From positions 1 through 47,859 of the forward strand of contig NZ_FOTS01000040.1 of assembly GCF_900114615.1 (NCBI RefSeq): 47,859 bases of DNA, read 5' to 3'. Of this stretch, positions 1-47,859 are shown in pieces (within the stretch, counting starts at the first letter, position 1; every line of letters begins with the position of its first letter). The notes under the pieces are model-generated. The model had not been told where the DNA came from. It searched no databases and worked only from the letters and a program-made list of their open reading frames with translations. A program made the position numbers and the translations under genes. Origin of the DNA: Pelosinus propionicus DSM 13327 (GTDB lineage: Bacteria; Bacillota; Negativicutes; DSM-13327).

Positions 1-246
1 AGAACCACTACCAGATAGATAATCCATCACGACTGTTTCTTTCAACTCCCAAGAATAGGATAGGTTTTTCGAGGTTTCCTGTAGCCCTTCTGGTCCTAAA
101 GACTGATACCTTGCTAACCATCGCCTAATGCTTGTATTAGCTACCTTTAATTGCTTTGACAGATCGTTCATGGAGTATTCATTCCGTAGGTACTTTTCAA
201 CTGCATCAATGCGTTCTTCATATGAAACCGTAAATTTGCTTCCCAT
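1..246 (-). CDS. IS3-family (IS150-like) transposase OrfA, N-terminal part, cut by window edge
   Basis: The reading frame starts at ATG 246 behind a strong AAGGAAGGAG site and runs off the left edge after about 82 codons. The product begins MGSKFTVSYEERIDAV and contains a helix-turn-helix (YSMNDLSKQLKVANTSIRRW) followed by RYQSLGPEGLQ. This is the usual start of OrfA proteins of IS3/IS150-type elements, which bind the element ends and are joined to OrfB by frameshifting. OrfB is not in the window. The gene lies just outside the phage lysis genes and is unrelated to them. The family call is by motif pattern only. Confidence 0.85.
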   Translation of the reverse strand, partial: MGSKFTVSYEERIDAVEKYLRNEYSMNDLSKQLKVANTSIRRWLARYQSLGPEGLQETSKNLSYSWELKETVVMDYLSGSGS

Positions 247-252
247 AAAAAA

Positions 253-314
253 TATGCTCCTTCCTTGCAATAGACAGTTTTATTATTTCAACTGTCTATT
301 ACAAGGGGAGCATA
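253..314. repeat. IS end: long imperfect inverted repeat
   Basis: Two arms pair almost perfectly: AATAGACAGTT (269-279) with AACTGTCTATT (290-300), continued outward by ATGCTCC near 253 and GGAGCAT near 314. Read on the minus strand, TGTAATAGACAGTT starting at 303 looks like the TG-terminated end of an IS3-family element. The outermost pairing reaches 314, so the exact boundary between IS and phage DNA is uncertain by about 11 bp. The structure would also form a strong hairpin in a transcript leaving the prophage. Confidence 0.6.
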
Positions 315-4452: not shown

Positions 4453-5091
4453 TTATAATCCTGTTACATCAATTACTAGGTAACTGTAGAATGTATTAAC
4501 ATAATCTGAGACATGCCCCCAAGCAGTAAGGTCTTTACGGTATATTGTTGTTGTTTGTAAAGATTCAAATTGGGCTACTTGATAATAGATACTATTAGTA
4601 GCCGAAGACAAGGTGTAAGCTAACATTCCTACTACTACTGCTGTTTTTACAGATGAAGAATGTAAAGTACTAGCTATTAATTGTCCCTCCACTGTATAGG
4701 CTGGTTGAGCACCTGACTTTCCTTCTAGTACTTTCATCCATTTTCCCCCATCCGAGAAAACTAACGCACCATCCGCATTTCGTACCTCAAAATGATTTCC
4801 GCTGGGTATATCTTGATACCCAAACTCGTAGATAGTAATAACGGTTCCATGGGGAGCAAGAATATTTAGAACATAGATATCAGACTCATCTTCGGCATAT
4901 GGTGTCTCAGTATAGACATATCCAGACTCAGCCCTAACCGCTAATACTTTTGTGGGGTCAATTTCTACAAAAGTCCAATATTTATCTTGGGGAATAGTTA
5001 CAGTATATTTTCTTAGGAACTGTAGGTTCTTGTAAGTATCAGTTATCTGCAGATACCCATTATCATTATATACTTCTATTCCAGCCGTCAT
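4453..5091 (-). CDS. Tail tip/fibre-associated virion protein (DUF6453-like)
   Basis: This 212-residue protein begins MTAGIEVYNDNGYLQITDTY, the typical opening of small proteins encoded just after gpJ in lambdoid-tailed phages. The rest is beta-rich with no membrane segment. It lies between the tail fibre and a smaller protein with a similar beginning (MQGLQCWDANGNLILDVTDR), suggesting the two share a fold. Probably part of the distal tail or fibre attachment. Family call is moderate. Confidence 0.7.
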   Translation of the reverse strand: MTAGIEVYNDNGYLQITDTYKNLQFLRKYTVTIPQDKYWTFVEIDPTKVLAVRAESGYVYTETPYAEDESDIYVLNILAPHGTVITIYEFGYQDIPSGNHFEVRNADGALVFSDGGKWMKVLEGKSGAQPAYTVEGQLIASTLHSSSVKTAVVVGMLAYTLSSATNSIYYQVAQFESLQTTTIYRKDLTAWGHVSDYVNTFYSYLVIDVTGL

Positions 5092-5092
5092 A

Positions 5093-5374
5093 TTAAAACA
5101 CCCCGTAAGTTATTTTGTGACTTATAGCTACCCCAGTACCGAAAGACCATGATAATACCTTTCCAGAAAAAGTAACAACACATTGAGCCTTATGGTCAGC
5201 TATAGCAGTAGGCTTTCGGTGAGATATCATCCAAGGTGTACCTGTAGTTAAGCTATTATCAGTTATTGACCCACTAGTAGTGCCAGTTTCGAATTGACCT
5301 AATACACGGGTTAATCTATCAGTCACATCTAAAATAAGATTTCCATTTGCATCCCAACACTGTAATCCTTGCAT
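5093..5374 (-). CDS. Small tail-tip-associated protein
   Basis: The 93-residue product opens MQGLQCWDANGNLILDVTDR and continues RVLGQFETGTTSGSI, a pattern found in short proteins next to the host-specificity protein of many siphoviruses. Its N-terminal motif (x-CWDANGNL) is parallel to the VYNDNGYL motif of the next gene. One base separates it from gpJ and from its other neighbour, so it is in the same tail operon. Exact role unknown; probably a minor tail component. Confidence 0.7.
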   Translation of the reverse strand: MQGLQCWDANGNLILDVTDRLTRVLGQFETGTTSGSITDNSLTTGTPWMISHRKPTAIADHKAQCVVTFSGKVLSWSFGTGVAISHKITYGVF

Positions 5375-5375
5375 C

Positions 5376-8300
5376 CTACCAAACCCCCATTCTTACGCGC
5401 AATACATTGTTAGCATCGTATACTAGTATTAAATTATCTTTAATCTCCGTACGTGCCCCTGTAGTTGCTGTACGTAAAGTGCCTATTGTCGCACTTATAG
5501 ATGATAGAGATCCTACATTCATTTTATCTGCTGTTATAGTGCTAGCTTTTAGCATTTTACCTACAATTACATTGTCATCAATCAGCGTATCTCCAGCGAT
5601 ATGATTAAACTTTGATGCTATTGTAATTGTTTCTGGTGATACATTAATGAGTCCAATAAGGTTATCTTTGGTAGCTCTTAATTGTATCGCAGCGGTATTT
5701 TGCGCAATAACGGTGTTAGCATTGTTTAAGTTTGTGACCACCTGTGTAATTTGTCCTGCCTGCTGATCTATTTGGGATAGCATAGTACTGTTAATTCCGT
5801 CTTGCGTAGCTTTATTCGTTTGTACCGTCTGTGTGATAGCATTTGTTGTTTGGGTTATGTCGGAAATTGAAGCATTTAACAAATCCTCATTTACTGCGCT
5901 TTCCGCTTTTTCAATCGCCCCCTTAACTACACTGTCCATCATTTCAAGAGACAAGGACTCTGCAGCTATTAGAGCAGGATCAATGGTAGGTTTAATGACC
6001 TTTGTTATTTCCGCTGATTTTTCACCTTCTCCAAATAAATCAACATAAGCTACCTGAATATCAAATATTCCTTCTGTCGCTTTAAAATTGTATGAATTGT
6101 TAGGACTGAAATACACCGTATTGCCTGTGCCATCATTAATATAAACATTGATGCCGAGGCAATAATTCGGCAGCGAATCACAAGTGATTACAATCCCCTG
6201 GAAGATATCGGCTATAGCTACATTTTGCGGAGCAATTGGCGCAGGTTTATTGTATTCCAAAAACGTTGCAGGAGAATATTGATTACTACTATTGTGAGCA
6301 TATAAATAAACCGTCCCTTTTCTGGACGGAGGCATTACTGCTATTGTATTTGCATTCGTTCTCGCCAGGCGGTTGTATGTATCTCCATAGGATTTATCGA
6401 GTCGCAATTCGTAAAAATCATTATCAGTGTTTTCTACGTCCTCCCACGACCAGGTACACACATCCGTAAATTTTACACTGAGATTTTGAGGGGTAGCAGG
6501 AGTATAGCTCTTGATTTTGATTTCATGGGTTACAGTTGGAGCTGCTTCAAAATCCGCTTTAAAGTTTTGTTCTGTAGCTGCAACAATTTTTACAGTAAAG
6601 GTCTGACTCGTTGCGCAGCCAGCAATGAGAATGCTATTATACGCCTTGCCTATGTATTTCCATACATTAGCATTTGTCATATCCTCCAGGGTAGTATCTT
6701 CTAAGTCCTCCCAGGACGTTTCTATTTCATCCCAATTCGGCTGGGATGTTTTTAAATATACGTCACTATGATCATACAATGATGTTGACGGCGGTTGCCA
6801 TGATGCTTCTAGTTCGTATAGGTTCGTTCCGTCTCGTACTTCCCGCAAATGCTGCACTAGCTTTAAATCAGTCACTTGCTGTACATATACATCGGATAAA
6901 ACATGGGTAAATGCTTCAACATCGGCTAAAGATTGATCCATAACACCAAATACATTAAATGATGTAAATTTGATATGGATTGTCTTGCCAATTTGGTCTT
7001 TGGTGAAAGGAAATTTAAACAAGGATTCATCCAGCCGCACAAACTTAGAACCTATTCCATGGGACACAATCTCCGTGCCATATACGCCCCGCACTAAGTA
7101 GTGTAGATTATATTGCTTTACACCTTGTAAGGTAGCTGCCTTATATGCCATTAGTTCTCCATCTACATAGCATAATGTTGCCAGGTTATCAACGTCGTAT
7201 TGACTGCCACTGCCCAATTCCCCTGGACTAATGAGTTCAACGAACAAATCATTGACGGTATCAATTGCTTCTCCTGCCTCAATTTGCGCTTTCAAAATTC
7301 CATGCCTTGCAGGTCCCGCTATCCTGCCTATATTTTGATATGCATCCCCTTCGTAGCTCACCCAAACATCACAACCGCCCCAATTTTCTCCCCCCGATAC
7401 TGCTATCCATGTTTCTAGTCCCGATGTAGTTAATTCAGACGGAGCATGAAAAATAACAGGATCATTGATATTCCCTGGGTCAACATATCGGTCAATTGCT
7501 GCACGTTCCGATGGATAGGTTCCATATTGTGCAGGAGTATAGGTTCCGTAGGGTTTATATTTTGCCTCAAAATCATAATATTCGTCGCCATCTTCTGTTG
7601 CAGTTTCGATCATGACAGGCAATTTTGTAAGTCCTGCCGCTTTTTCTTCCGTAAGGGTTACAATATCACCTGGTTCAAGTAAGGAATGCGCCATACCTAA
7701 CTTAAACTTATATGTATTACGTCCATAGCAACTATCCATGGCAATCTGCTGGGCTACTTGTTCGGCTCTTTCTTTTGTATGGATATAGGGATAACTAACG
7801 GTAGGCATGGGATGCAAGCCACGTTTATTAATATCCGCTAAAATCTGATAGTCTACGGTTTCCGTTTCATATCCATTTTCACGGTTCGTAAATTCTACCG
7901 TTACCTGGTTATAGGTTTCGGCATTATCAGTACGCTCCCAGGTAACCAGTTTGCCATCTTCATTGGTAATAAAATCATCTGTATCAAGATCATATGCTGT
8001 TACCAGATTTGGCGTATAGGTAACACCGTTTCCCGTGACGACCTCCTCGCAGCGCGGCACAAATTTAATTTTGCGTTGGCTCCAAAATACAATGGTATTG
8101 GTGATTTCGCATATGGTATTAATGATCTCATAGGCTTTGGATTGATCGGTTAGCGGCACTGTGATATAGAGATTCGATGCTTGGCAATATAGTTTATAAT
8201 CATTTAACGAGGATGTATGCATATTATCAAGGGTAAATCCAAGCCCGTTTACACTGTCGGTCAAAATGTATGTAATCGCACTTGCTGGATTTACGTCTTC

Positions 8301-8816
8301 CCCATCGCCTGTACTTCTCAATTGTCCCTGCATTTCAAAGTTATATTGTTTTAATCCGCCACTATCATTAAGGTCAATATAACCTGCTACATATGCTAAA
8401 CCACTATAGGGTATTGCATGGTCAGGATTTTTTGATGTTGTGTAAGACCAAACTGGCTGACCGATGGAACCATCAAACAAGGTTAATCCTGTATCTACTA
8501 ACGTGGTAATGGTATCCGTGTCTATCCAAACCTGACCAATGCCATCAATTTGCCCTTCGCAGAGGGCAAGCAGCACCGCCGCTTTGTAGGTATGGGTTAT
8601 CGTAGTTGTTTTAGATCCCCCGCCTTTACCTGTGCGTTGGGTCGATTTATGATCAATTTTTGTAAAATCATAAAAATCAAGTACATTTGCCGCTTGCCTT
8701 GATGTGCCTAATATAATCGGCACTGTAATGCCATAGGTTGCTTGATTGATTTGAAAATTTGCGACACTCCCATTGTCAATGGTGGTATTTTTGCCACCGC
8801 CAAATAGACCGCCCAT
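5376..8816 (-). CDS. Tail tip protein, gpJ-like host-specificity protein
   Basis: This 1,146-residue protein starts MGGLFGGGKNTTIDNGSVA and matches large central tail-tip proteins (lambda gpJ, GTA g15 type). The N-terminal ~650 residues form the tail hub region (motifs such as VPIILGTSRQAANVLDFYDF, LALCEGQIDGIGQVWID). Beta-sandwich modules of fibronectin type follow around residues 680-930. The C-terminal end has a coiled coil (about 985-1060) and a DNLILVYDANNVLRVRMGVW tail. It closes the tail tip and contacts the receptor or positions the fibre. The gene is contiguous with NlpC/P60, DUF2163 and DUF2460 genes in canonical order. Confidence 0.92.
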   Translation of the reverse strand: MGGLFGGGKNTTIDNGSVANFQINQATYGITVPIILGTSRQAANVLDFYDFTKIDHKSTQRTGKGGGSKTTTITHTYKAAVLLALCEGQIDGIGQVWIDTDTITTLVDTGLTLFDGSIGQPVWSYTTSKNPDHAIPYSGLAYVAGYIDLNDSGGLKQYNFEMQGQLRSTGDGEDVNPASAITYILTDSVNGLGFTLDNMHTSSLNDYKLYCQASNLYITVPLTDQSKAYEIINTICEITNTIVFWSQRKIKFVPRCEEVVTGNGVTYTPNLVTAYDLDTDDFITNEDGKLVTWERTDNAETYNQVTVEFTNRENGYETETVDYQILADINKRGLHPMPTVSYPYIHTKERAEQVAQQIAMDSCYGRNTYKFKLGMAHSLLEPGDIVTLTEEKAAGLTKLPVMIETATEDGDEYYDFEAKYKPYGTYTPAQYGTYPSERAAIDRYVDPGNINDPVIFHAPSELTTSGLETWIAVSGGENWGGCDVWVSYEGDAYQNIGRIAGPARHGILKAQIEAGEAIDTVNDLFVELISPGELGSGSQYDVDNLATLCYVDGELMAYKAATLQGVKQYNLHYLVRGVYGTEIVSHGIGSKFVRLDESLFKFPFTKDQIGKTIHIKFTSFNVFGVMDQSLADVEAFTHVLSDVYVQQVTDLKLVQHLREVRDGTNLYELEASWQPPSTSLYDHSDVYLKTSQPNWDEIETSWEDLEDTTLEDMTNANVWKYIGKAYNSILIAGCATSQTFTVKIVAATEQNFKADFEAAPTVTHEIKIKSYTPATPQNLSVKFTDVCTWSWEDVENTDNDFYELRLDKSYGDTYNRLARTNANTIAVMPPSRKGTVYLYAHNSSNQYSPATFLEYNKPAPIAPQNVAIADIFQGIVITCDSLPNYCLGINVYINDGTGNTVYFSPNNSYNFKATEGIFDIQVAYVDLFGEGEKSAEITKVIKPTIDPALIAAESLSLEMMDSVVKGAIEKAESAVNEDLLNASISDITQTTNAITQTVQTNKATQDGINSTMLSQIDQQAGQITQVVTNLNNANTVIAQNTAAIQLRATKDNLIGLINVSPETITIASKFNHIAGDTLIDDNVIVGKMLKASTITADKMNVGSLSSISATIGTLRTATTGARTEIKDNLILVYDANNVLRVRMGVW

Positions 8817-9254
8817 TTACACCACCCGCCTATGTCGATATACTGCATACAGCCTGGATTTCCCCTTGTTATCTTGCAGTAAGGCTTCGCGTATGTCAGA
8901 CAGAATTACGCCCATGCCAACATACGAGTGTATGATTGTAGACCATTCTACTACAATACCGCCATGGCTAACGCATCTGCCAAACTTAAATGTGGCAATA
9001 TCTCCAGGTTGGGGATCTCCTGTAACTACATCACAAAATTTTTCTACCCATCCAAGATACTTTTCCTCTGAGCGGTGCAGGTGCCACTCATTGGAGTACT
9101 GTCCCGGGTCACATTCTCCATCTTTTAGTAATCCCGCCTCTTCGTAAACAGCAATTAGGAGCTGACCGCAATCAATGCCAACTCCTTTTATTTTTGCGCC
9201 CGAATGATAGGGTGTATTTAAGTATGTTTTAGCAATTTCAACGATATTGTTCAT
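8817..9254 (-). CDS. NlpC/P60 tail-tip peptidoglycan peptidase
   Basis: The 145-residue protein is a single NlpC/P60 domain. The catalytic Cys29 sits in GVGIDCGQL, His97 in VSHGGIVV, and His109 is a likely third residue. Proteins of this type (GTA g14, lambda gpK) ride in the tail tip and cut cell-wall peptides during DNA entry. It lies between the DUF2163 hub gene (one-base overlap) and gpJ, as in RcGTA and lambda-like tails. High confidence in fold; substrate bond not determinable here. Confidence 0.93.
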   Translation of the reverse strand: MNNIVEIAKTYLNTPYHSGAKIKGVGIDCGQLLIAVYEEAGLLKDGECDPGQYSNEWHLHRSEEKYLGWVEKFCDVVTGDPQPGDIATFKFGRCVSHGGIVVEWSTIIHSYVGMGVILSDIREALLQDNKGKSRLYAVYRHRRVV

Positions 9255-10114
9255 TATGTAATCGTCTCCTTTAAGGGGATATACGGCGTTGATCGATTGC
9301 GAGAGAAATTGCCGAATTTAGTGGCGCAGACGGCAGGTGTTTTTGCGCACCCAGGGTAAATGGTGAATGTATCTCCCACAGAGGGCAGGGAGTCAAGGGA
9401 CACAATAAAAATGATCCTACCGCCTGCGCTGTAGGATTTTTTTACTGACATATCGCTGCCGATTAAGTTTCCACTCGTAAAGACAACCCCGCCAAGGTCG
9501 AAATATCCGTCACCAAAGGCTAGGCTTGTGTGTATTTCTTGCTTATTGACCACCTGCGTTATGGTGCCCGATGTGGTGTAATCGGCAATATTCAGCTCGC
9601 AACCAGGACCATATAGACTGTAGGGACATGTGGGATAATATTTACGTGTGGGATAATCAATGTTAAGCTTTTGCATGTCGGATTTGATTTTCCATTCCAT
9701 TTCAATACCGCCACCACCTTCCACGTCCACGTAACCGCCAAACCATTCCAAAATATCAACGACTACCCCAGGACTATACATATAACACTTATATAAAACC
9801 AAATCGGCATTATCAAAGGCTCCTGTTTGTGCCGCCTCCATCCAGGTTGCAGATCCTATGATATCATTTGCATCAGCAAGTACTGAAACGTCCATGCTAT
9901 CGACTTCGATTTTTGCTGTCTGCTTTGTTTGCCCTCGCACAAATATAGGACCCGTACTTTTAAAGAGTCTGCCATCAGTTAATTTAATATCCATATCATA
10001 GTCTGCATAGCGCAGCACAATTCCGCCCTGCAATGTAATTTCGTATAAATCACATTTTAGATAACTCGTTGTAGAGTGTAGATAGTTTTTTAATACATCA
10101 CTGCATTCTTTCAT
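9254..10114 (-). CDS. Tail hub protein, DUF2163/BR0599 family (GTA g13-like)
   Basis: Start set at ATG 10114, which overlaps the upstream stop as ATGA with GGTGAG before it; a longer frame to 10162 lacks support. The 286-residue product carries the DUF2163 N-terminal region (LYEITLQGGIVLRYADYDMD) and the BR0599-type C-terminus with the cysteine cluster TCPYSLYGPGCELN and later PGCAKTPAVCATKFGN. In the Rhodobacter gene transfer agent the homologue is the baseplate hub. Those cysteines may bind an iron-sulfur cluster in homologues. Operon position agrees. Confidence 0.9.
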   Translation of the reverse strand: MKECSDVLKNYLHSTTSYLKCDLYEITLQGGIVLRYADYDMDIKLTDGRLFKSTGPIFVRGQTKQTAKIEVDSMDVSVLADANDIIGSATWMEAAQTGAFDNADLVLYKCYMYSPGVVVDILEWFGGYVDVEGGGGIEMEWKIKSDMQKLNIDYPTRKYYPTCPYSLYGPGCELNIADYTTSGTITQVVNKQEIHTSLAFGDGYFDLGGVVFTSGNLIGSDMSVKKSYSAGGRIIFIVSLDSLPSVGDTFTIYPGCAKTPAVCATKFGNFSRNRSTPYIPLKETIT

Positions 10115-10689
10115 CGCGCACTCACCAACTTTATTGTTTTTAAAGAATAGTAACCATACCAAAAATTTGCCCAGCTCAAACCATCATCATCAAAGGCAAC
10201 ACGCCAATAATACTCAAAAGAGGCTGTTAATACAGCCCCTGTACTTGGAGGACTCGCGAATTGTACCCATCCATCTGTTAAAGGTGTAATGACAGCCTTG
10301 TTCCCATTATTAAATACGGTTATAGTCTCGACAATGGGATCGGTTATGGGTTCGACCATATACCCGCCGAAGTTCCGCAGAAGCTGAAATTCTTTTGTAA
10401 CCCCATTACCTGTACCAATCCGTACATTTGTTTCTTTATAATCCTCTGGGTCTCGCCATAAAAAAGGAGTGTGCATGCCTTTTACCATGCCAAAAAATCC
10501 AGCAGCTTTTTTAATGTCGCTATCACTTAGTGCCGTGTATGAACATTGCAGTTCCCACGCTGGATAAGCTTGTTGGCATAAGGTCTTGCGCCGTCCGCTA
10601 CCTGACTTTTGTACTGTTACATCCCATATCTGTCTTTTTTCAGAGTTCCATGCCATTGTAGGCAGGGCAGGGAAAATAGCTAGGCTCAC
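10111..10689 (-). CDS. Distal tail protein, DUF2460 family (GTA g12-like)
   Basis: The 192-residue product has the DUF2460 signature from the start (FPALPTMAWNSEKRQ) through FFGMVKGMHTPFLWRDPEDY. In the gene transfer agent this family forms the distal tail ring that joins tail tube to hub. It overlaps the tape-measure stop by four bases and is followed by DUF2163, NlpC/P60 and gpJ genes. The order supports a lambda/GTA-type tail tip. Confidence 0.9.
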   Translation of the reverse strand: MSLAIFPALPTMAWNSEKRQIWDVTVQKSGSGRRKTLCQQAYPAWELQCSYTALSDSDIKKAAGFFGMVKGMHTPFLWRDPEDYKETNVRIGTGNGVTKEFQLLRNFGGYMVEPITDPIVETITVFNNGNKAVITPLTDGWVQFASPPSTGAVLTASFEYYWRVAFDDDGLSWANFWYGYYSLKTIKLVSAR

Positions 10690-13600
10690 AACCTCACCCC
10701 CGACGCTGCAAAGGCACTTGCTTGTTTTGCAAAATATTTCTCAATCTTAGCCCCGCCGCTTGTCTTTAGCCATTTTTCTACTGATTTTCCATCTAATGCA
10801 GATATTTTTAAAGATAGACTATTAACTGATCCCTTTTCCTCTTGTCCGCTACTTTTTTCATACGTTTTTTGATTTGGCATTGCTGAATTATATCTACCGC
10901 TTATAGATGATAAAGAACGTCCTGTTACAAGTCCACCTGTGGCGAAGCCTGGTAGTTTACCAGTTTTATTCATGTAATTTAGATTATCAATGCCTATTGA
11001 CCGCGTAGATGATTCTTTCATCATATACTCTCCAGCTGATCCCCACATTAAAACACTATCAGAAGTGCCTGTGCCTGGACCAACAATTTTACCGCCTGTA
11101 GCATATGATCCTAATCCCATACCAACTAAGGATGCTGCTGTCATTCCACCAATGGCAGGTCCTGCATTTGCTCCGAATGATGCCAAACTAACAGCGACAG
11201 CCGCTGGCCACCATGCTGCGGCTGTCGCTGCCCCCTGCGCAATTCCTTTATTAGTTGCGTCATCAGCAGGTTTTCCAAATATCTTTTCAATGGCCCACAT
11301 TTTCATTCTGCCAGTGATCCATTCTGCAACCATGTTAGAAATCATATTATTAACTGTACTACCTAAAGCATTCCACGCATCGCCAATTGAATTTGTACCG
11401 CTTATGGCATCGGCAAAGAAAGTCGTAAGTCCCGATGACATCCCATTAATTCCTTCCATGATATATTCCGTCGTTGATTTGTGGGATTCTTTCCACGCTT
11501 CACCATATGAGTCTATGATAAGTTGGCGGTCTGTTAAATTTTTCGTCAGTGCGGCATTCTCTGAATTTAAAGCGGCCATATATGCTGTTAGATTACCTTG
11601 ATCTCTCGCCTTTTTTAAGGCTGATTCATAATTTAACTGTGCTTCATTAAGGGCATTTAATTTTTCAATAGACTCTTGTTTTATAAGTACAATCTTATTT
11701 GCTGTATCCTGTGCCAAATCAATCTGTGTATTGGACATGTCAGCAGCACCTGCGTTAACTTGTGATACAAGGTCTTTGGCATCCATTACCATTCCATTTT
11801 TACTAACAGTGAACACTGTTCCAGCAGCAGTCATAGCTTGGATGGTTTGTAGTTTTGATTCGTTTGATAAATCAGCAAATGACTGTTCGGTATCCCTAGC
11901 CTCATTTCTAATTTTAGTGAATTCAGCTTCAGCATTTGATTTTATTTCAAATACTTGTTTTGTGCCATCCCCCATACCAATTTGAGCGGTACGATCTTGA
12001 TATTCCTTTGCGCTTTCTAGAGCTTTATCCCAGATTGAATTCGTACTTTTTTGTTGTTCTGATAAAATTTTCTTCTTCTTCTCAGCGTAAATTTCATCAA
12101 GTCTTCCCTTGTCTATCGCATAGTCAGCATTGGCAGAGGCGGAAGCATCTAAGTCTGCTTGTTCTTTATCTCGCCAATTATTTAATGCGTCTAATTGCGT
12201 CCCCGTTAGACTAATCCATTCATCTTTAATGGAATCAGAAGTAGCTTTTGCCGCCTTCTGCAAATTTTCATATGCCTTTGCTTCTTTCTCAGTAGCTTTT
12301 TCAGCATCTGACTTGCCAGTTTTTTCTTCCGATCCAGCAAGAGTAGCCTGCATTTTAGCTAAAATATCAGGATCGGTAAATTTCTGAATGTCAGGCGTTT
12401 TTTCTTGTATAGACTCATTATCCGCACGCTTTGAATCGGCTGGAGAATTCCTTTCGTTTATAATTCGTTCTTTTACATCGGCAGGCGTAAACGGATTGTC
12501 TATTGCTTCTCGTTGTCCCCGATCCTCTCTGTTTGCGGCTTGATACTCTTGGAGTTTATAAAGAGCATAGCTTGTAGCAACTGCTACTCCAACCCATCCA
12601 CCAGCTAAAGTCCAAATAGCAGAGGCAGTACTTCCTGCCATTGCTCTAACCGCAGCCATAGCACTCACTGTTTTTTCACCAGCAACTACAGCGGTATTCC
12701 CTGTAACTACATGAGATGCAGCCAATCTTTCTTGTGCGAGGATTGATTCTGCTGTTGCTGCAGTAGATGCCTCTGCCGCTAAAACCGTCTTAGTTCCTGT
12801 CGCAGTAGCTGCTGCCCCTTGTGCCGCAAGAGCTTCACTCGTTATCACAGAAGATGCTTTAGCAGCTTCCGCCTGGGCAACAAATGCGGCAGTCATATTT
12901 ACACGTATTGTATCGGCTGCAACTTTTGCTTCTATCGCTATTCGATTTATTTCCCCTGCTATAACGGTAGATGCTGCCACAGTGCTTCCAGCAGAGGCTT
13001 GTGCCGTTTTTATAGCAGCTGCTTCCAATTTGGCATATTCCCTTGCACTCTGAGCAACCATTCTAGATATTGATCGTTCTTGAGCAATCGTCAGAGTGCT
13101 TGTTGCTGTCGTACTAGCAGTCGATGCCGCTAATGCCTGGGCAGATGCCACACTCCACGCATTACCTATGCTTGCAATAATTGCTGATGCCGCACCAACC
13201 GTTTTATACGCAGCCGTTAATCCTACTAATGTTGTTACTGTTGATCCTATTGCACTTTTATGTTCTGCTAAAAATTTAGCTGTACTAGATAGCCCTTCCA
13301 TGATTGGCGGAAATACTTCTTGTGCTATTGGTGCCAATGCCCCTGTAAACGCTGATCCCAACGCACCAGCTTGCATAGATACTATCTTCATTTGCTTATC
13401 AAGTTCATGCATTTGTTTGGGATCAATACCAACGCCTTTAGATTTAGATGCCATTTCGGATGCCTCAGTATAATCCTTTAGTGTTTGTACTAAAGACAAA
13501 CCTTTCACGCCTAACGTTGACATGATAAACTCTTGTTCAAGTCCGTTTTCCGCAGCAAGTTTATAACCTTTAGAAAGTTCAGCTAATTGCTGATTAAGGG

Positions 13601-29103: not shown

Positions 29104-29268
29104 TTATGCTTTCTTCTTTAATTCTTCAATAACCTTTTTGGCACGTTCTCGGTCATTATCACTATGAAAGGAGAACTTTCCATCGTGGCATATTCGATAA
29201 CTGATACCCGCCCGATTGAATGCTTCAAGCAAATCCACTGCATCTTCAAGATCATATTCTATACTCAT
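29104..29268 (-). CDS. 54-residue protein coupled to parB
   Basis: ATG 29268 overlaps the parB stop (ATGA) with GAAGGTG before it. The 54-residue product is acidic then basic, MSIEYDLEDAVDLLEAFNRA, then SFHSDNDRERAKKVIEELKK. Predicted beta-hairpin and a C-terminal helix. Coupling to parB suggests joint expression; function unknown. Confidence 0.7.
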   Translation of the reverse strand: MSIEYDLEDAVDLLEAFNRAGISYRICHDGKFSFHSDNDRERAKKVIEELKKKA

Positions 29269-30203
29269 AATGCACCTTCTTTATCATTACTAACCTCTGG
29301 CAAATACTGTTCTATTACTGATAGTTTTATAAAACATTGTTTAATCTCCGCTTGCATGGTAGGAGTCCTTGCTATCAAATGCTTTAAAATACCTCTGATA
29401 TAATTACCTGCATTTTCAGCATTCTTACGCTCTTGTTCAGTTATTGTTGCCTTTGCCTGTTTTTTCGATGCACTTTTCTTGGCAGATTTTTCTTTTACAT
29501 CTTTTAAACTTGTTTCTCCTTTGACTTTATGCTGCTCATAGGCTTCTTTCTGTTTTTCTTGCGGCATTTTTGATAATTCAGCGGCAGTAGAAATGTTTAT
29601 ATTATCTTTCTTAAGTTCTTCTTTAAATTCAGGAGCTAGGTTATTGTTTATAGCATCCATTCGCCCTACTTGGGTAGTAGATATATTTAACGCTCCTGCT
29701 AATAGTTCTCTTACCCGCCCTGGCAGATCATGCTCTTTCTTATATTCCGCAAATAATTCTTTCAGCCGTGATAGCTGCTCGACCTTTTCCCAATCACTTA
29801 ATTCCCGCGTGGTATAGTTAGTACTGATAAGAAGCATTTTTTCTTCTATGTCGTTACTGCTGGTTACCAAGCAAGGGACTAACTCAAATTTCTTTTTGCC
29901 TTCCTCCACTAGCATTATGCTTGCCATTCTGCGACGATGCCCTGCAACGACTTTATGCTTATTACTGTCCTTTATAGGCTTAACTATTAGGTTCTGCTGT
30001 ACCCCAAACAATTCTATTGAGTCCTTTAGGTCTGCAACATCTTCCACTGAGTAAAAGTTATCTTCCGATGGTTTCAAGTCATACACACTAAGCCATACCA
30101 CTTTAAAAGCATTACCCACCCCTGTAGCATCTGTGTTTAATTCCTTATTAGATTTTGAATTTGAATTTAATAAATCTGTTAGGCTGAAACCTTTCTTCGC
30201 CAC
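29265..30203 (-). CDS. parB: ParB-like partition protein
   Basis: GTG 30203 (AGAGGGG seven bases before) is a better start than an ATG at 30242, which lies inside a palindrome. The 312-residue product has the ParB N-terminal domain with the nucleotide-binding box VAGHRRRMA (residues ~87-95), the YTTRELSDWEKVEQLSRLKE segment, a helix-turn-helix (LAGALNISTTQVGRMDAI), and a Lys-rich linker with a C-terminal helical part. With ParA next door it should segregate a replicon. A purely regulatory ParB-like role in a phage is also possible. Confidence 0.9.
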   Translation of the reverse strand: MAKKGFSLTDLLNSNSKSNKELNTDATGVGNAFKVVWLSVYDLKPSEDNFYSVEDVADLKDSIELFGVQQNLIVKPIKDSNKHKVVAGHRRRMASIMLVEEGKKKFELVPCLVTSSNDIEEKMLLISTNYTTRELSDWEKVEQLSRLKELFAEYKKEHDLPGRVRELLAGALNISTTQVGRMDAINNNLAPEFKEELKKDNINISTAAELSKMPQEKQKEAYEQHKVKGETSLKDVKEKSAKKSASKKQAKATITEQERKNAENAGNYIRGILKHLIARTPTMQAEIKQCFIKLSVIEQYLPEVSNDKEGAL

Positions 30204-30219
30204 TTCTCCACCCCTCTGT

Positions 30220-30244
30220 AAATGTGTCCGAATTGGACACATTT
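30220..30244. promoter_or_regulatory. Palindrome upstream of parB: candidate parS or operator
   Basis: Arms AAATGTGTCC and GGACACATTT (10 bp, perfect) flank GAATT. It occupies the 43-bp gap between parB and the preceding gene, just upstream of the parB ribosome site. Such sites serve as ParB-binding centromeres or as operators. No second copy was seen in the window by eye. Confidence 0.65.
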
Positions 30245-30246
30245 TT

Positions 30247-30498
30247 CTATTGGTCGTTTATCTTTACTTTGCAAACATGAATTATCTTATCTATATCAGG
30301 ATGATTGAAGTAAAAGCCGTTATCATCTTTCCCTTCTTTATCCCTTTTCCCGCCCTCTGGGTATGGTACAGAATAATAATCCCATGCTTTCATTGTTTTA
30401 AAATGAATGACTCTTTTTCCAGTGATAAGATAGTTCCCAACTTCTCCATGATGCTCTACCTCAACAATAGAGCCTATATTGATTAAAACTTCTTTCAT
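30247..30498 (-). CDS. DUF4176-like small protein between parA and parB
   Basis: The 83-residue product shows INIGSIVEVEHHGEVGNYLI, DYYSVPYPEGG and GFYFNHPDIDKIIHV, the conserved skeleton of DUF4176 proteins. Members elsewhere are often found near type VII secretion genes of Firmicutes; here it is within a partition cassette. It overlaps parA by four bases and is followed by the palindrome. Molecular function unknown. Confidence 0.75.
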   Translation of the reverse strand: MKEVLINIGSIVEVEHHGEVGNYLITGKRVIHFKTMKAWDYYSVPYPEGGKRDKEGKDDNGFYFNHPDIDKIIHVCKVKINDQ

Positions 30499-31262
30499 TG
30501 CTTATCCCCTAGATACTCTTCCACGAAAGACAGATAATCTTTTGCCGCTCCACATCTTGGGGAATACTCAACAATTGGCAAACCTGCAAATGTACTTTCA
30601 TCTACCTTATCTGCTGTTCTACGAATATGTGTTGCAAATATGGGGTATTGTGTTTGGTCAGTTAAATACGCTTTTCCTTGGCGATTTACTTCATTATTGA
30701 CATATTGAGTCACGAGACAACCTCTAAAGTTAAGATCTGGATTAAATTTTCTAACTTCTTCAAATTGGTCAACGAGTATCTCTAGTCCATCAAAACTATA
30801 CTGATCTATTTTGATTGGCACTATAACCGAATGAGCAGCTACCAGGCTATTAATTATGCTGATATTTATATCGGGAGCATTATCTATTATGCAATAATCA
30901 TATTCTGACTCAACTTGTTCTAAGGCTTTTTTCAATATGGTCTGCTGTTCCCTTGATTCATCCATACTTATCTTAAGGTTAGCAGTTAGCAAATTCATAT
31001 TTGCAGCAATCATGTCTAAATTCGCATATCGTGTGTGTTGAATAGCGTTATGAATATCATAATTCTTTTCAATAAGCACATCAGCTATACTTGGGTGATC
31101 ATAACCATGTAATCTATAAAATTTAGATGCATTGCCTTGCTTATCATCGTCTATAAGCAATACGCGTTTATTATGAACTGTAGCTAATATGTGTGCCTTA
31201 TTGACAGATGTTGTAGTCTTGGCTATCCCGCCTTTTAAATTACTGAATACTGTTATTTCCAT
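30495..31262 (-). CDS. parA: ParA/Soj-family partition ATPase
   Basis: Start set at ATG 31262 (AAGGAG nine bases before). The 255-residue product has the deviant Walker A KGGIAKTTT (residues 10-18), LLIDDDKQGN (switch I/A'), YCIIDNAPD (Walker B region) and the usual C-terminal helix. No N-terminal helix-turn-helix is present, so it is a type Ib-like or Soj-like ATPase. It starts within the end of the upstream gene and is followed by the DUF4176-like and parB genes. Confidence 0.93.
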   Translation of the reverse strand: MEITVFSNLKGGIAKTTTSVNKAHILATVHNKRVLLIDDDKQGNASKFYRLHGYDHPSIADVLIEKNYDIHNAIQHTRYANLDMIAANMNLLTANLKISMDESREQQTILKKALEQVESEYDYCIIDNAPDINISIINSLVAAHSVIVPIKIDQYSFDGLEILVDQFEEVRKFNPDLNFRGCLVTQYVNNEVNRQGKAYLTDQTQYPIFATHIRRTADKVDESTFAGLPIVEYSPRCGAAKDYLSFVEEYLGDKQ

Positions 31263-31500
31263 GGAAAGCAACTCCTTGTGATTTTTCAAGTAACTTAAAC
31301 TCGCAGTAATATTTCAGTACGCATCCACTTTTATCATTTTCTACTTTTCTGCATGGGTTAGATTGATAGACTCCCTTACATGGGATATATTCTCTTAATT
31401 CTTCAAACCTTTTTTCTACTGCATTACCTAGCCTTGCATGCCTAGCTTCTTTTTTATCCCGCCCACGTAGCTCCGCTATTTCTTCTCTAGTCATTGCCAT
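31240..31500 (-). CDS. Small Cys-containing protein upstream of parA
   Basis: Start set at ATG 31500, nine bases from GGAGG; ATG 31506 is also possible. The ~86-residue product is basic at the N-terminus (REEIAELRGRDKKEARHARL) and has four cysteines in CKGVYQSNPCRKV and CVLKYYCEF. It overlaps parA by 23 bp and the upstream gene by 14 bp. No family recognised; possibly metal-binding. Confidence 0.7.
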   Translation of the reverse strand: MAMTREEIAELRGRDKKEARHARLGNAVEKRFEELREYIPCKGVYQSNPCRKVENDKSGCVLKYYCEFKLLEKSQGVAFHGNNSIQ

Positions 31501-45760: not shown

Positions 45761-45910
45761 TTATAAATCGCCAGGAACCAAGAATAGAACTAGCAGAAAT
45801 AGTATAGATAAGAATATGCACTTTAAGATCTCACTTTCATGAGTTAACTGTTTTACAGATGAATTAAAACGAATATTGATTACTTCTACTTCTGCCTTTG
45901 AATTATCCAT
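45761..45910 (-). CDS. 49-residue membrane-anchored peptide
   Basis: ATG 45910 follows GAAGG at nine bases and overlaps the end of the upstream gene by 8 bp. The product MDNSKAEVEVINIRFNSSVK ends with the membrane helix CIFLSILFLLVLFLVPG. Possibly an early-membrane protein. Function unknown. Confidence 0.6.
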   Translation of the reverse strand: MDNSKAEVEVINIRFNSSVKQLTHESEILKCIFLSILFLLVLFLVPGDL

Positions 45911-46178
45911 ATTTTAAAGCCTTCGCCATGACGCTTACGGCTCCACTGGATTTTGAAGATGGTTTTTCTTTTGCCATAAAAGGAGCATTATTTAGGCACT
46001 CTTTTTCGATGATAGCCAGTGTCTTACTAACTAAAACCTTTAAAAATGGTCTACCATCCGTAGAATAACTTTTAGTATGTGGATAAAGACCAAGAATGCA
46101 TTTTTCACGTATAACATGCTCCGACATGCCGGAGTATTTCGCAAACTCTCGTGGCGTCATTAATAAGGGGATTTCCAT
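45903..46178 (-). CDS. Excisionase/MerR-like helix-turn-helix protein
   Basis: The 91-residue product starts MEIPLLMTPREFAKYSGMSE and continues HVIREKCILGLYPHTK, the winged helix of Xis/HTH_17-type proteins with a GRPFLKVLVSK beta part. In lysogenic phages such proteins direct excision or act as early regulators. The lack of an integrase nearby makes a purely regulatory role possible. Confidence 0.75.
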   Translation of the reverse strand: MEIPLLMTPREFAKYSGMSEHVIREKCILGLYPHTKSYSTDGRPFLKVLVSKTLAIIEKECLNNAPFMAKEKPSSKSSGAVSVMAKALKYG

Positions 46179-46199
46179 ATTACTACCTCCTACAAAAAA

Positions 46200-46246
46200 C
46201 TGATACCATTTTGGTTACTGACTGATACCACTTTGGTTGCTATACT
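46200..46246 (+). promoter_or_regulatory. Tandem operator and promoter of the Arc-like gene
   Basis: CTGATACCATTTTGGTTA (46200-46217) and CTGATACCACTTTGGTTG (46222-46239) are 22 bp apart, two helical turns. TATACT at 46241-46246 is a good -10 but no clear -35 is present. Ribbon-helix-helix repressors bind such tandem repeats, so autoregulation is likely. The same site may repress the minus-strand 46178 gene. Confidence 0.65.
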
Positions 46247-46274
46247 CTTGACATCACTTATTAGGAGGATGTCA

Positions 46275-46448
46275 ATGGCAACCGATAAAATAGAGTTTAC
46301 ACTGCGTCTGCGCGAGGTAACAGCAAACAAAATTGCTGAAATCGCGAATCGTAAATCCCGTTCTAGAAATGCTCAAATTTCTACAATCTTAGAACAATTC
46401 GTGGAAGAATACGAAAAGGAAAATGGGGATATTAAATTTGAATATTAA
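46275..46448 (+). CDS. Arc-like ribbon-helix-helix repressor
   Basis: ATG 46275 follows GGAGGATGTCA. The 57-residue product MATDKIEFTLRLREVTANKI then IANRKSRSRNAQISTILEQF is a classic ribbon-helix-helix with beta strand (IEFTLRLRE) and SRNAQIS turn. It is on the opposite strand to the Cro-like gene, ending 2 bp from its end. Probable repressor of its own promoter and of early genes. Confidence 0.88.
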   Translation: MATDKIEFTLRLREVTANKIAEIANRKSRSRNAQISTILEQFVEEYEKENGDIKFEY

Positions 46449-46450
46449 AT

Positions 46451-46687
46451 TTATGCTACAATATTTTTATTGTGAATATTATGCACATCAATTGGCAAAA
46501 AAATATGGTCAGCCGTTGATTTAACGGCTCTTGCAATTAAAATAGCAAGCTCATAATCAACCCTTTTTATAACTCCTGTCTCAATTCGACTATAAACAGT
46601 TCTGTCAATACAACACTCTAAGGCAACTTGTGCTTGTGTTTTGTTTACCTTTTTTCTAGCATTTAAAAGATTTTCACGTCTCAACAT
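46451..46687 (-). CDS. Cro-like XRE-family regulator
   Basis: Start at ATG 46687 (AAAGGAGG before). The 78-residue product has an XRE helix-turn-helix (LLNARKKVNKTQAQVALECC, IDRTVYSRIETGVIKRVDYE) and a C-terminal part ending in NKNIVA. It is the first gene of the leftward early transcript under the 42-bp operator, in the place of Cro. Confidence 0.85.
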   Translation of the reverse strand: MLRRENLLNARKKVNKTQAQVALECCIDRTVYSRIETGVIKRVDYELAILIARAVKSTADHIFLPIDVHNIHNKNIVA

Positions 46688-46707: not shown

Positions 46708-46749
46708 TGTGCATCTTATACACATATTATATTGTGTATAAGATGCACA
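46708..46749. promoter_or_regulatory. 42-bp palindromic operator in the divergent CI/Cro region
   Basis: Two perfect 17-bp arms (left arm TGTGCATCTTATACACA; the right arm is its reverse complement) flank an eight-base A/T spacer. Each arm is itself a near-palindrome of the form GTGYAT-N3-ATRCAC, so two repressor dimers could bind side by side. A related half-site TATATGCACAA lies near 46798. It overlaps the early promoter. Confidence 0.8.
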
Positions 46750-46840: not shown

Positions 46841-47242
46841 TTGAGCACATTCGGCAAAAGATTAAAAGAATTAAGGAGTAAAAAAGGATTAACTCAAAAA
46901 GAATTGGCACCTTTTATTAATACCACTAGGGATACATTAGCAAATTGGGAAGTAGGAAGAGCGACGCCAGATATTGAAAGCGTCAAAACTATAGCCGATT
47001 ATTTTAACGTAAATACTGATTTCTTATTAGGAAGATCAAATATTGATTATAAACTTACAGATATGATTACTCCTGACGGGAAAGAGATAGTCACTCAAGA
47101 CCATAAAAACCCAGAAATAGCACAACTATTGCGCGACAACGGCATTAAAAAACTTCAGTTAATGAAAGGTTATTCTTTAGATGATTTAAAGAGACTAGTT
47201 GAATTAGGTGAATTATTGCGAAATAAAAGAACAGGGGATTAA
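46841..47242 (+). CDS. CI-like XRE repressor without a cleavable C-terminal domain
   Basis: TTG 46841 follows GGAGGTGTGATAT. The 133-residue product has an N-terminal XRE helix-turn-helix (FGKRLKELRSKKGLTQKELA, INTTRDTLANWEVGRATPD, VKTIADYFNVNTDFLLG). A short helical C-terminus follows (LMKGYSLDDLKRLVELGELL). No S24/LexA-type Ser-Lys peptidase is present, so RecA cannot induce its self-cleavage. It diverges from the Cro-like gene across the operator. Confidence 0.88.
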   Translation: MSTFGKRLKELRSKKGLTQKELAPFINTTRDTLANWEVGRATPDIESVKTIADYFNVNTDFLLGRSNIDYKLTDMITPDGKEIVTQDHKNPEIAQLLRDNGIKKLQLMKGYSLDDLKRLVELGELLRNKRTGD

Positions 47243-47252
47243 CCCCTGTTCT
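47228..47252. terminator. Bidirectional terminator between repressor and LexA-controlled gene
   Basis: AGAACAGGGG / CCCCTGTTCT (10-bp stem, ATTAA loop that includes the repressor stop codon). T-rich flanks on both sides suggest it ends both convergent transcripts. Confidence 0.7.
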
Positions 47253-47254
47253 CT

Positions 47255-47395
47255 TTATAATAAGTCTATATAATCTTTATCAATAAGTACCATACCATCA
47301 TCATACTCTATATAATCACAAAGACTTGTTAATTCGCAATAAATAATAGCTTGCTCTTCGTCATTATCACATTCCTTAGCTGAATATTGCATCAT
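47255..47395 (-). CDS. 46-residue acidic protein under a LexA box (possible antirepressor)
   Basis: ATG 47395 (or ATG 47392) follows GGAGG. The product MMQYSAKECDNDEEQAIIYC then ELTSLCDYIEYDDGMVLIDK is strongly acidic with three cysteines. It is convergent with the repressor and has its own promoter with a LexA box in the transcript start region. Inference: made on DNA damage, it could disable the neighbouring repressor. Small size prevents family assignment. Confidence 0.75.
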   Translation of the reverse strand: MMQYSAKECDNDEEQAIIYCELTSLCDYIEYDDGMVLIDKDYIDLL

Positions 47396-47434
47396 CGAAA
47401 CCTCCAAAATTTCTTCAAATACATCGAACACTAT

Positions 47435-47448
47435 CGAACATACGTTCG
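47435..47448. promoter_or_regulatory. LexA/SOS box
   Basis: CGAACATACGTTCG matches the Gram-positive LexA (DinR) consensus CGAAC-RNRY-GTTCG perfectly. An extra half-site CGAAC at 47425-47429 lies 10 bp away. It sits 40 bp before the start of the 46-residue gene, just downstream of a good promoter. Confidence 0.9.
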
Positions 47449-47463
47449 ATTTGTATTGTTTTA

Positions 47464-47492
47464 ATTTTACATCTTATAATGGAATAATTCAA
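47464..47492 (-). promoter_or_regulatory. Promoter of the LexA-controlled gene
   Basis: On the minus strand TTGAAT (47492-47487) and TAAAAT (47469-47464) are 17 bp apart, and transcription would begin about 10 bp before the LexA box. LexA binding there would block it. Confidence 0.75.
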
Positions 47493-47600
47493 CATACTAT
47501 TAAACTACCTTTTATTACAATATCTACTTTTTTTCGACAAATAAGAAAAGGGGCTGTCTCAATAAGAAATTGAGATAGTCCCTTATATGTATTAAAAATA

Positions 47601-47632
47601 CAAGAGGCAGGTTCCGAAGAACCTGCCTCTTG
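47601..47632. repeat. Perfect hairpin in the IS1182 leader
   Basis: CAAGAGGCAGGTTC and GAACCTGCCTCTTG pair over 14 bp with a CGAA loop, 19 bp before the transposase ATG. Such leaders often block read-in transcription into the transposase gene. Confidence 0.8.
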
Positions 47633-47650
47633 GTGTAGAATTAAACTGCT

Positions 47651-47859
47651 ATGAAAAACTTTACACATATAAATCCTACAACAAAAACAAATTCATATCA
47701 ACTAGTTTTACCGCTTCCTATCGAAATCCTCATACCAGAAAACGATTCGGTCAGGCTGTTAAGTAAGATAATGGATCAACTTGATTATTCGCTGTTATAC
47801 AAAGCGTATTCTCGTAAAGGCAGAAAATCAGTAGTCTCACCTAAAATGCTTTTCAAAAT
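47651..47859 (+). CDS. IS1182-family transposase, N-terminal part
   Basis: ATG 47651 starts MKNFTHINPTTKTNSYQLVL, then LPIEILIPENDSVRLLSKIM and LDYSLLYKAYSRKGRKSVVS before the window ends. This is the typical N-terminal (DUF772) opening of IS1182 transposases; the DDE core lies outside the window. Confidence 0.9.
   Translation, partial: MKNFTHINPTTKTNSYQLVLPLPIEILIPENDSVRLLSKIMDQLDYSLLYKAYSRKGRKSVVSPKMLFK

Follow-up and report, generated by a model that had tools for sequence, protein, structure and literature searches.

A LexA-boxed gene for a 46-residue acidic protein, convergent on an ImmR/DdrO-type repressor, as a candidate antirepressor switch of a probable phage-plasmid

SinI of Bacillus subtilis is a short protein that antagonizes the XRE repressor SinR. 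Repressors of the ImmR/DdrO type frequently have an ImmA protease as partner, whose gene lies immediately downstream, and DdrO is cleaved by a protease related to ImmA. In the case of ImmR, the cited part of PMC12637031 describes the repressor as being degraded or displaced by ImmA. Antirepressors under LexA control are known from phages 186 and N15 and from the Gifsy phages; the Gifsy protein GftA alone suffices for prophage induction, and the 186 protein Tum is nearly twice the size of the Gifsy antirepressors (from the portion of PMC3121763 that concerns them). The small proteins encoded by phage smORFs inactivate cI nonproteolytically where this was tested (PMC10432266, in part), and gp7 of GIL01 is a LexA partner (cited parts of PMC4551915 and PMC9700832). 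Prophages with repressors that do not cleave themselves are many, and where ImmA is missing the route by which DNA damage induces them is often unclear. A LexA-boxed tiny gene lying head-on to the repressor would be a simple answer to how such prophages respond to damage; no description of such genes convergent on ImmR-type repressors was found among the titles and abstract openings of the open-licence literature.

We describe one such arrangement here. The window, i.e. the whole stretch of 47,859 nucleotides that was analyzed, is an entire contig (C66); the genome to which it belongs has 5.4 Mb in 134 contigs. The features that concern the small gene, called P0001, and the repressor gene that it faces are the following:

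46841-47242, plus strand: XRE repressor of the ImmR/DdrO type, 133 aa, TTG start (Pfam and PDB sequence match)
47228-47252, no strand: hairpin, 10 pairs listed, over the repressor stop codon (terminator scan and folding)
47255-47395 including the stop codon, minus strand: P0001 coding sequence, 46-residue acidic orphan protein, candidate antirepressor (open reading frame and codon usage)
47401-47405, minus strand: P0001 ribosome-binding site GGAGG, 5 nt 5′ of the first of two ATGs
47435-47448, no strand: LexA box CGAACATACGTTCG, exact palindromic consensus (pattern search)
47464-47492, minus strand: sigma-70-type promoter TTGAAT-17-TAAAAT (consensus match only, 9 of 12 positions)

The P0001 ORF encodes the 46-residue protein MMQYSAKECDNDEEQAIIYCELTSLCDYIEYDDGMVLIDKDYIDLL (coding positions 47258-47395 of the minus strand, stop codon 47255-47257), with an alternative 58-codon reading from an upstream GTG. 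Its codon score (0.295 per codon) was reached by none of 141 length-matched, spurious open frames, which overlap in part and come from other frames of the same 22 window genes that trained the score, and was higher than that of 90% of 165 true gene stretches. By its codon usage, the P0001 ORF is a real coding gene. The protein has a pI of 4.05 and a charge of -11.5, confirming the description given in an earlier note on this DNA of a tiny acidic gene converging on a repressor gene (minus vs. plus strand, respectively).

That note also called the protein new and very small, and this holds for the collections that we searched: no homologue of the 46-residue protein was found beyond chance in any of them, two of the collections covering near relatives only. 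The IMG/VR record UViG 2636416028_000002 encodes the P0001 protein at 98%. A search of 380 genomes of the class gave 38 with E ≤1, the window's own genome among them; the other listed matches were short, with E values of 0.041 or weaker, and mostly lay within longer frames. Pfam and PHROGs-type profile scans detected no known domain in P0001, and the AlphaFold2 model made from the single sequence was poor (pLDDT 57.5). Since no homologue was found, the function of P0001 is without support from conservation.

The LexA box sits between the promoter-like site, from whose second hexamer it is separated by 15 nt, and the P0001 ORF. It is the sole match in the window to CGAACNNNNGTTCG with at most one mismatch (chance expectation 0.43), and the exact consensus CGAACRNRYGTTYG is expected 0.013 times per window (2 in 150 Markov copies). 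In the 5.4 Mb host genome, CGAACRNRYGTTYG gave 8 rows corresponding to six places, namely recA (one), lexA (two), the P0001 box, C57:12540 and C103:11552; the reversed control pattern had no forward match and one reverse match. The host recA region contains CGAACAAATGTTTG and the lexA promoter region contains CGAACGTATGTTTG and CGAACAAACGTTTG, lexA being named as the genome's only PF00717 match, i.e. by the general S24 model. No recognized SOS gene lies beside two of the six consensus boxes. The box of P0001 is an exact match of the same type as those at the host recA and lexA promoters and is likewise at a promoter-like site; the perfect LexA box claimed to lie just downstream of a promoter was indeed found there. 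The promoter itself, described as a good one, was found as well but is weak evidence alone, as 13 sites matching at the 9 of 12 level occur between 46100 and 47859 vs. 8.4 expected. Together, these matches strongly suggest that host LexA controls the P0001 gene.

Boxes were also seen at other loci of the host. A perfect LexA box, CGAACATATGTTCG, at positions 1518-1531 of locus L002 (host contig C57:12540) stands directly before an uncharacterized gene whose frame starts at about 1550. The box AGAACGTATGTTCG at position 7623 of locus L154 (host contig C59) has, by eye, an amidase-like lysis gene, an XRE gene and small ORFs next to it, and this locus is possibly a second SOS-linked prophage remnant.

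In the repressor, HTH families alone scored over the Pfam cut-offs and the S24 domain is absent, in agreement with the earlier description of a 133-residue repressor without S24. The best PDB match is the DNA-binding domain of ICEBs1 ImmR (7t8i, E 2e-11), with DdrO next; the matches stop at residue 65 (ImmR) and residue 80 (DdrO), and the relatedness seen is that of the N-terminal part. As judged from these matches, the repressor is ImmR/DdrO-like with a short C-terminal part lacking S24. The earlier note had counted a cleavable repressor elsewhere as an argument against its own proposal; the single PF00717 match in the host assembly is the gene taken as LexA. The word ‘non-cleavable’ should nevertheless read ‘not self-cleaving’, because this repressor is nearest to ImmR and DdrO, types that are cleaved by ImmA-like proteases. 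The neighboring regulatory features are:

46451-46687, minus strand: divergent Cro-like XRE gene, 78 aa from ATG (Pfam and profile scans)
46708-46724, no strand: TGTG-N9-CACA, putative operator for the repressor, within the divergent promoter region (sequence pattern)
46733-46749, no strand: second operator-like site, an inverted exact copy of the first (sequence pattern)
46471-46487, no strand: third TGTG-N9-CACA site, 3′-terminal in the Cro-like gene (sequence pattern)

The Cro-like gene also has a 90-codon alternative reading from a GTG at 46723. The TGTG-N9-CACA sites, by their pattern, may well serve as repressor operators. A candidate repressor half-site in the P0001 promoter, CATCTTATA, was discarded, as it is without the TGTG/CACA ends common to the three operator-like sites. 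A second regulatory pair occupies window positions 45903-46448, consisting of an Arc-like gene (46275-46448, plus strand) and an uncharacterized gene of 91 aa (45903-46178, minus strand) divergent from it; the Arc-like gene also converges with the Cro-like gene.

Our preferred reading, which we consider probable, is that P0001 is a LexA-controlled antirepressor acting directly on the ImmR-type repressor. In an undamaged cell, host LexA would occupy the box at 47435-47448, which closely follows the P0001 promoter, and keep the gene off, and the ImmR-type repressor would hold the divergent early promoter through the TGTG-N9-CACA operators. Upon DNA damage, RecA-driven cleavage of LexA would free the P0001 promoter; the acidic P0001 protein would then bind the basic repressor (pI 9.1) and stop its hold on the operators, allowing expression of the Cro-like gene and the lytic genes. 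The charge complementarity of the two proteins fits with such binding. We infer the antirepressor role from the position of the gene in the slot of immA, the recurrence of the layout and the known precedents, and infer likewise that the repressor is inactivated directly; the LexA-antirepressor interpretation is plausible and is strengthened by this context.

The layout was searched for in viral contigs in two scans. Scan one, for a LexA box followed by GGAGG 8-38 nt on and by ATG a further 4-10 nt on, gave at least 120 loci. Closed ORFs of 25-60 codons were counted as small, and a small ORF was considered to face a repressor if, no more than 700 bp from its end, an ORF of 60 codons or longer started on the other strand and had an HTH match (home-made profile refined on the first-scan and control loci, E ≤1e-3). 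Among the matches listed, 13 of 27 small ORFs face an XRE repressor, vs. 1 of 80 larger ones (Fisher 1.3e-8), the 13 including the window's own copy (locus L229). The numbers among the matches listed were 11/24 vs. 1/71 after deduplication (Fisher 3e-7) and 12/26 for the small ORFs without the window (Fisher 5e-8); two counting rules gave 11/27 and 13/27 facing, again among the matches listed, the latter rule allowing overlaps of up to 150 bp. This table excludes small ORFs that are open-ended as well as any ORF shorter than 25 codons, which together account for 13 of 120 loci in scan one and for 7 of 119 in scan two; none of them, among the matches listed in both scans, faces a repressor.

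Scan two, for AGGAG without the following G, found 1 of 21 small ORFs vs. 0 of 91 larger ones facing a repressor among the matches listed; this is not significant (p 0.19) and the small-ORF effect was therefore not replicated. Locus L261, shared by the two scans, was counted in scan one only. The pooled figures among the matches listed (14/48 small vs. 1/171 larger) are driven by scan one. A control pattern with swapped arms, two-fold narrower than the real one (one two-fold position fewer), gave 12 loci in the whole collection vs. at least 120 for the real pattern, and none of the 12 faces a repressor; compared like for like (boxes ending in GTTCG), there were at least 71 real-pattern loci vs. 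12 for the control. Seven facing repressors examined in Pfam, including that of the window, had HTH families and no S24. Most of the facing proteins have 103-136 aa; in two with longer readings (167 and 194 aa), the start appears to have been placed too far upstream. In genomes, a boxed DYK-type family gave 3 matches with a search pattern chosen from that family itself, of which 2 were parsed, both facing an XRE repressor.

These counts bear on the possibility that P0001 is an SOS-controlled effector with another target, in the host or in timing (replication, division, RecA, defence), and that its place beside the repressor is incidental. In its favor, 106 of the 120 scan-one loci are without a facing XRE repressor among the matches listed, and P0001 has no known domain. 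It is at odds, however, with the finding that a facing XRE repressor is much commoner for small boxed ORFs than for larger ones, and no SOS input to the repressor other than the P0001 gene was found on the contig. We consider this explanation unlikely.

The facing tiny genes have 32-51 codons. One apparent family comprises the proteins of L212, L219, L221 and L300, which were aligned, and by eye also those of L252 and L444. The remaining proteins are different; Pfam gave no match for any of the four tiny proteins scanned. Between tiny proteins and their repressors, charge shows an anti-correlation (rho -0.79, p 0.0013, n=13 pairs, some of them related), weaker when taken over 8 families (rho -0.72, p 0.045); without the window the anti-correlation is not significant (rho -0.58, p 0.18). 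A copy of the repressor's C-terminus in P0001, as in a SinI-like mimic, was considered and rejected (shuffle p 0.40). Among the 13 pairs tested, the tiny protein of L309 resembles the C-terminus of its facing repressor (0 of 5000 shuffles did as well), as does that of L399 (p 0.002), and two further pairs lie below 0.05; a separate run on nine pairs, L309 and L399 not among them, gave nothing under 0.09.

Boxes were also noticed upstream of genes of other kinds. LexA-like boxes precede genes that by eye are integrase-like at L142 1335-1348 (host contig C19), L009 4866 and L014 4896, the last two being loose matches, and exact consensus boxes do so in L241, L249, L260, L262, L268, L194 and L195; these are possibly SOS-controlled integrases. 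A LexA-boxed protein of 65-74 codons with a Q-R-x-I-x-V pattern recurs in the phage contigs of L193, L232, L205, L224 and L238, and is perhaps a lone WYL-like domain.

The P0001 and repressor genes are convergent with 12 bp between their stop codons, and in the related layouts of L278, L309, L399 and L251 the tiny ORF and the gene opposite overlap (gaps of -41 to -98 bp). Such arrangements would also suit antisense or transcriptional interference, in which SOS transcription of the small gene enters the repressor gene and lowers its expression, with a secondary role for the peptide. Between the two genes of the window there is, however, a strong hairpin (folding z of -6.0 on the minus and -5.3 on the plus strand), although 47228-47252 is listed as terminator-like on the plus strand only, i.e. 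in the repressor's direction; this candidate terminator possibly serves both genes. The codon usage moreover points to selection on the P0001 peptide, and we find interference very unlikely.

The contig also encodes a terminase, an endolysin, a DnaD-like helicase loader, SSB and RusA, along with two further genes:

29265-30242, minus strand: ParB gene (ParB-like, E 2e-65)
30495-31289, minus strand: ParA gene (ParA-like, E 7e-55)

Because ParA and ParB are encoded along with phage genes, the element is probably an extrachromosomal phage-plasmid; no integrase was detected among 40 ORFs scanned against PHROGs. Used as a probe for related phages, ParB found the window itself only. The two ends of the contig resemble IS elements, a different one at each end, and the element is therefore not closed: the right end, from 47651 to the contig end, is what we take to be an IS transposase frame (47549-47859 being presumably IS1182-like), and the left end (window 1-300) is presumably an IS3-type element. 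The LexA consensus occurs in 5 of 47 related phage records (40 found by terminase, 7 by repressor), the window being one of the five; the other four have single one-sided matches. One related record with a terminase 46% identical (L141, in the IMG/VR phage record G219) carries at 4518-11114 a very large gene that we take to resemble a large clostridial toxin gene.

The window contig has no match to ImmA (PF06114); the host matches are on contigs C19, C57 and C103 only, each of these three immA-type genes being directly 3′ of an XRE gene. In a related phage contig (L122, terminase 59% identical), a HEXXH protein comes directly after a repressor of this kind, and in named phages with a similar repressor a HEXXH gene follows the XRE gene in two of three, none being there in L447. 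On the window contig the P0001 gene occupies the slot that immA takes elsewhere. One could still envisage that the real switch is an ImmA protease, encoded on an unseen part of the element or by another host prophage, and that the small gene is an accessory. ImmR and DdrO are the closest matches of the repressor, the immA-type genes of the other host contigs could act on it in trans, and an immA or other switch gene may be on an unseen piece, since the contig ends look like IS fragments. Against this, the place directly after the XRE gene, where immA lies in L122, C19, C57 and C103, is taken here, and L447 likewise does without a HEXXH gene there. We give this explanation very little credence.

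LexA-like boxes with at most one mismatch were also found at immA itself, 6 in 32 loci (the 29 best-scoring class matches plus C19, C57 and C103) vs. 0-1 in five Markov copies; of the boxes examined, two lie before immA and three after. On C103 (L155 8963-8976), the box CGAACATATGTTTT, with 1 mismatch, is directly before the immA ribosome site, and the same position is taken by a box with 1 mismatch at an immA-type gene in another genome of the class (L166 1964-1977). The boxes before immA suggest, from their placement, that some ImmA proteins may be LexA-controlled. An immA gene of the same cell that has its own LexA-like box, in that slot, parallels the P0001 arrangement.

Finally, P0001 might be a LexA partner, modulating the SOS response and its own promoter by binding to LexA, as the GIL01 phage promoter carries LexA boxes and its small protein gp7 strengthens LexA binding and slows LexA cleavage (cited part of PMC4551915), but this is highly improbable given that the GIL01 promoter is repressed by LexA itself, whereas here there is a dedicated XRE repressor with operator-like sites.

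Coming back to P0001 as an antirepressor, we see about equal grounds for and against taking the window as an example of an unrecognized class, in which a LexA-boxed gene of 32-51 codons, convergent on a short XRE repressor, which here is ImmR-like, would encode a tiny antirepressor and provide the SOS input where repressors neither self-cleave nor have ImmA. The tiny proteins belong to several groups that are not related to each other, which suggests that the slot would have been refilled repeatedly; some would copy the C-terminal part of the repressor, suggesting a decoy that breaks repressor oligomers. If the layout recurs with unrelated proteins, it represents a general, searchable kind of switch, whose genes are easily missed by annotation because they have only 32-51 codons. 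What is new here is the ImmR/DdrO-type repressor without ImmA on the contig, the probable phage-plasmid context and the recurring layout.

Several known systems resemble this one in part. Like SinI, P0001 would be a short protein that antagonizes an XRE repressor; the tiny proteins of L309 and L399 resemble the C-terminus of their repressor, whereas P0001 does not. The TF-smORF modules of linear plasmid-like phages (Silpe et al. 2023, cited part of PMC10432266) encode homologue-less small proteins that inactivate the cI of their own phage; the smORFs are switched on by a neighboring transcription factor, independently of SOS, in phages with a self-cleaving cI, whereas P0001 is LexA-boxed. With P0001 as the tblastn query, the best E value in the searched stretches of 186, N15 and VP882 was 1.8, and there was no significant match to N15 20000-46000, a stretch that may not include antC. 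AntC of N15, as partially described, is an SOS-regulon antirepressor of a plasmid prophage, to be compared with P0001 on a probable phage-plasmid, but its repressor and host differ from those of P0001.

The Gifsy proteins GftA, GfoA and GfhA of Salmonella, in the cited part of PMC3121763, are small, LexA-controlled and induce prophages with uncleaved repressors. Their genes are enterobacterial and lie outside the immunity region, beside a dinI homologue, and the likeness to P0001 is one of description. Tum of 186 had been named as a parallel, and this stands at the functional level: its gene, like that of P0001, has a LexA site at the promoter, and its product blocks DNA binding by the phage repressor (186 record annotation and the cited part of PMC3121763), the role that we propose for P0001. 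The parallel does not extend to sequence or position, as Tum has 146 aa and no sequence relation to P0001 and, in the part of the record used, tum lies about 6 kb from cI and is not convergent on its end, whereas P0001 has 46 aa and a convergent gene. ICEBs1 ImmR-ImmA and its relatives share the repressor type, and in the loci examined the antirepressor gene follows the repressor gene, as the candidate gene does here; ImmA, however, is a co-directional metalloprotease, whereas the P0001 gene is convergent and LexA-boxed and encodes 46 aa without HEXXH.
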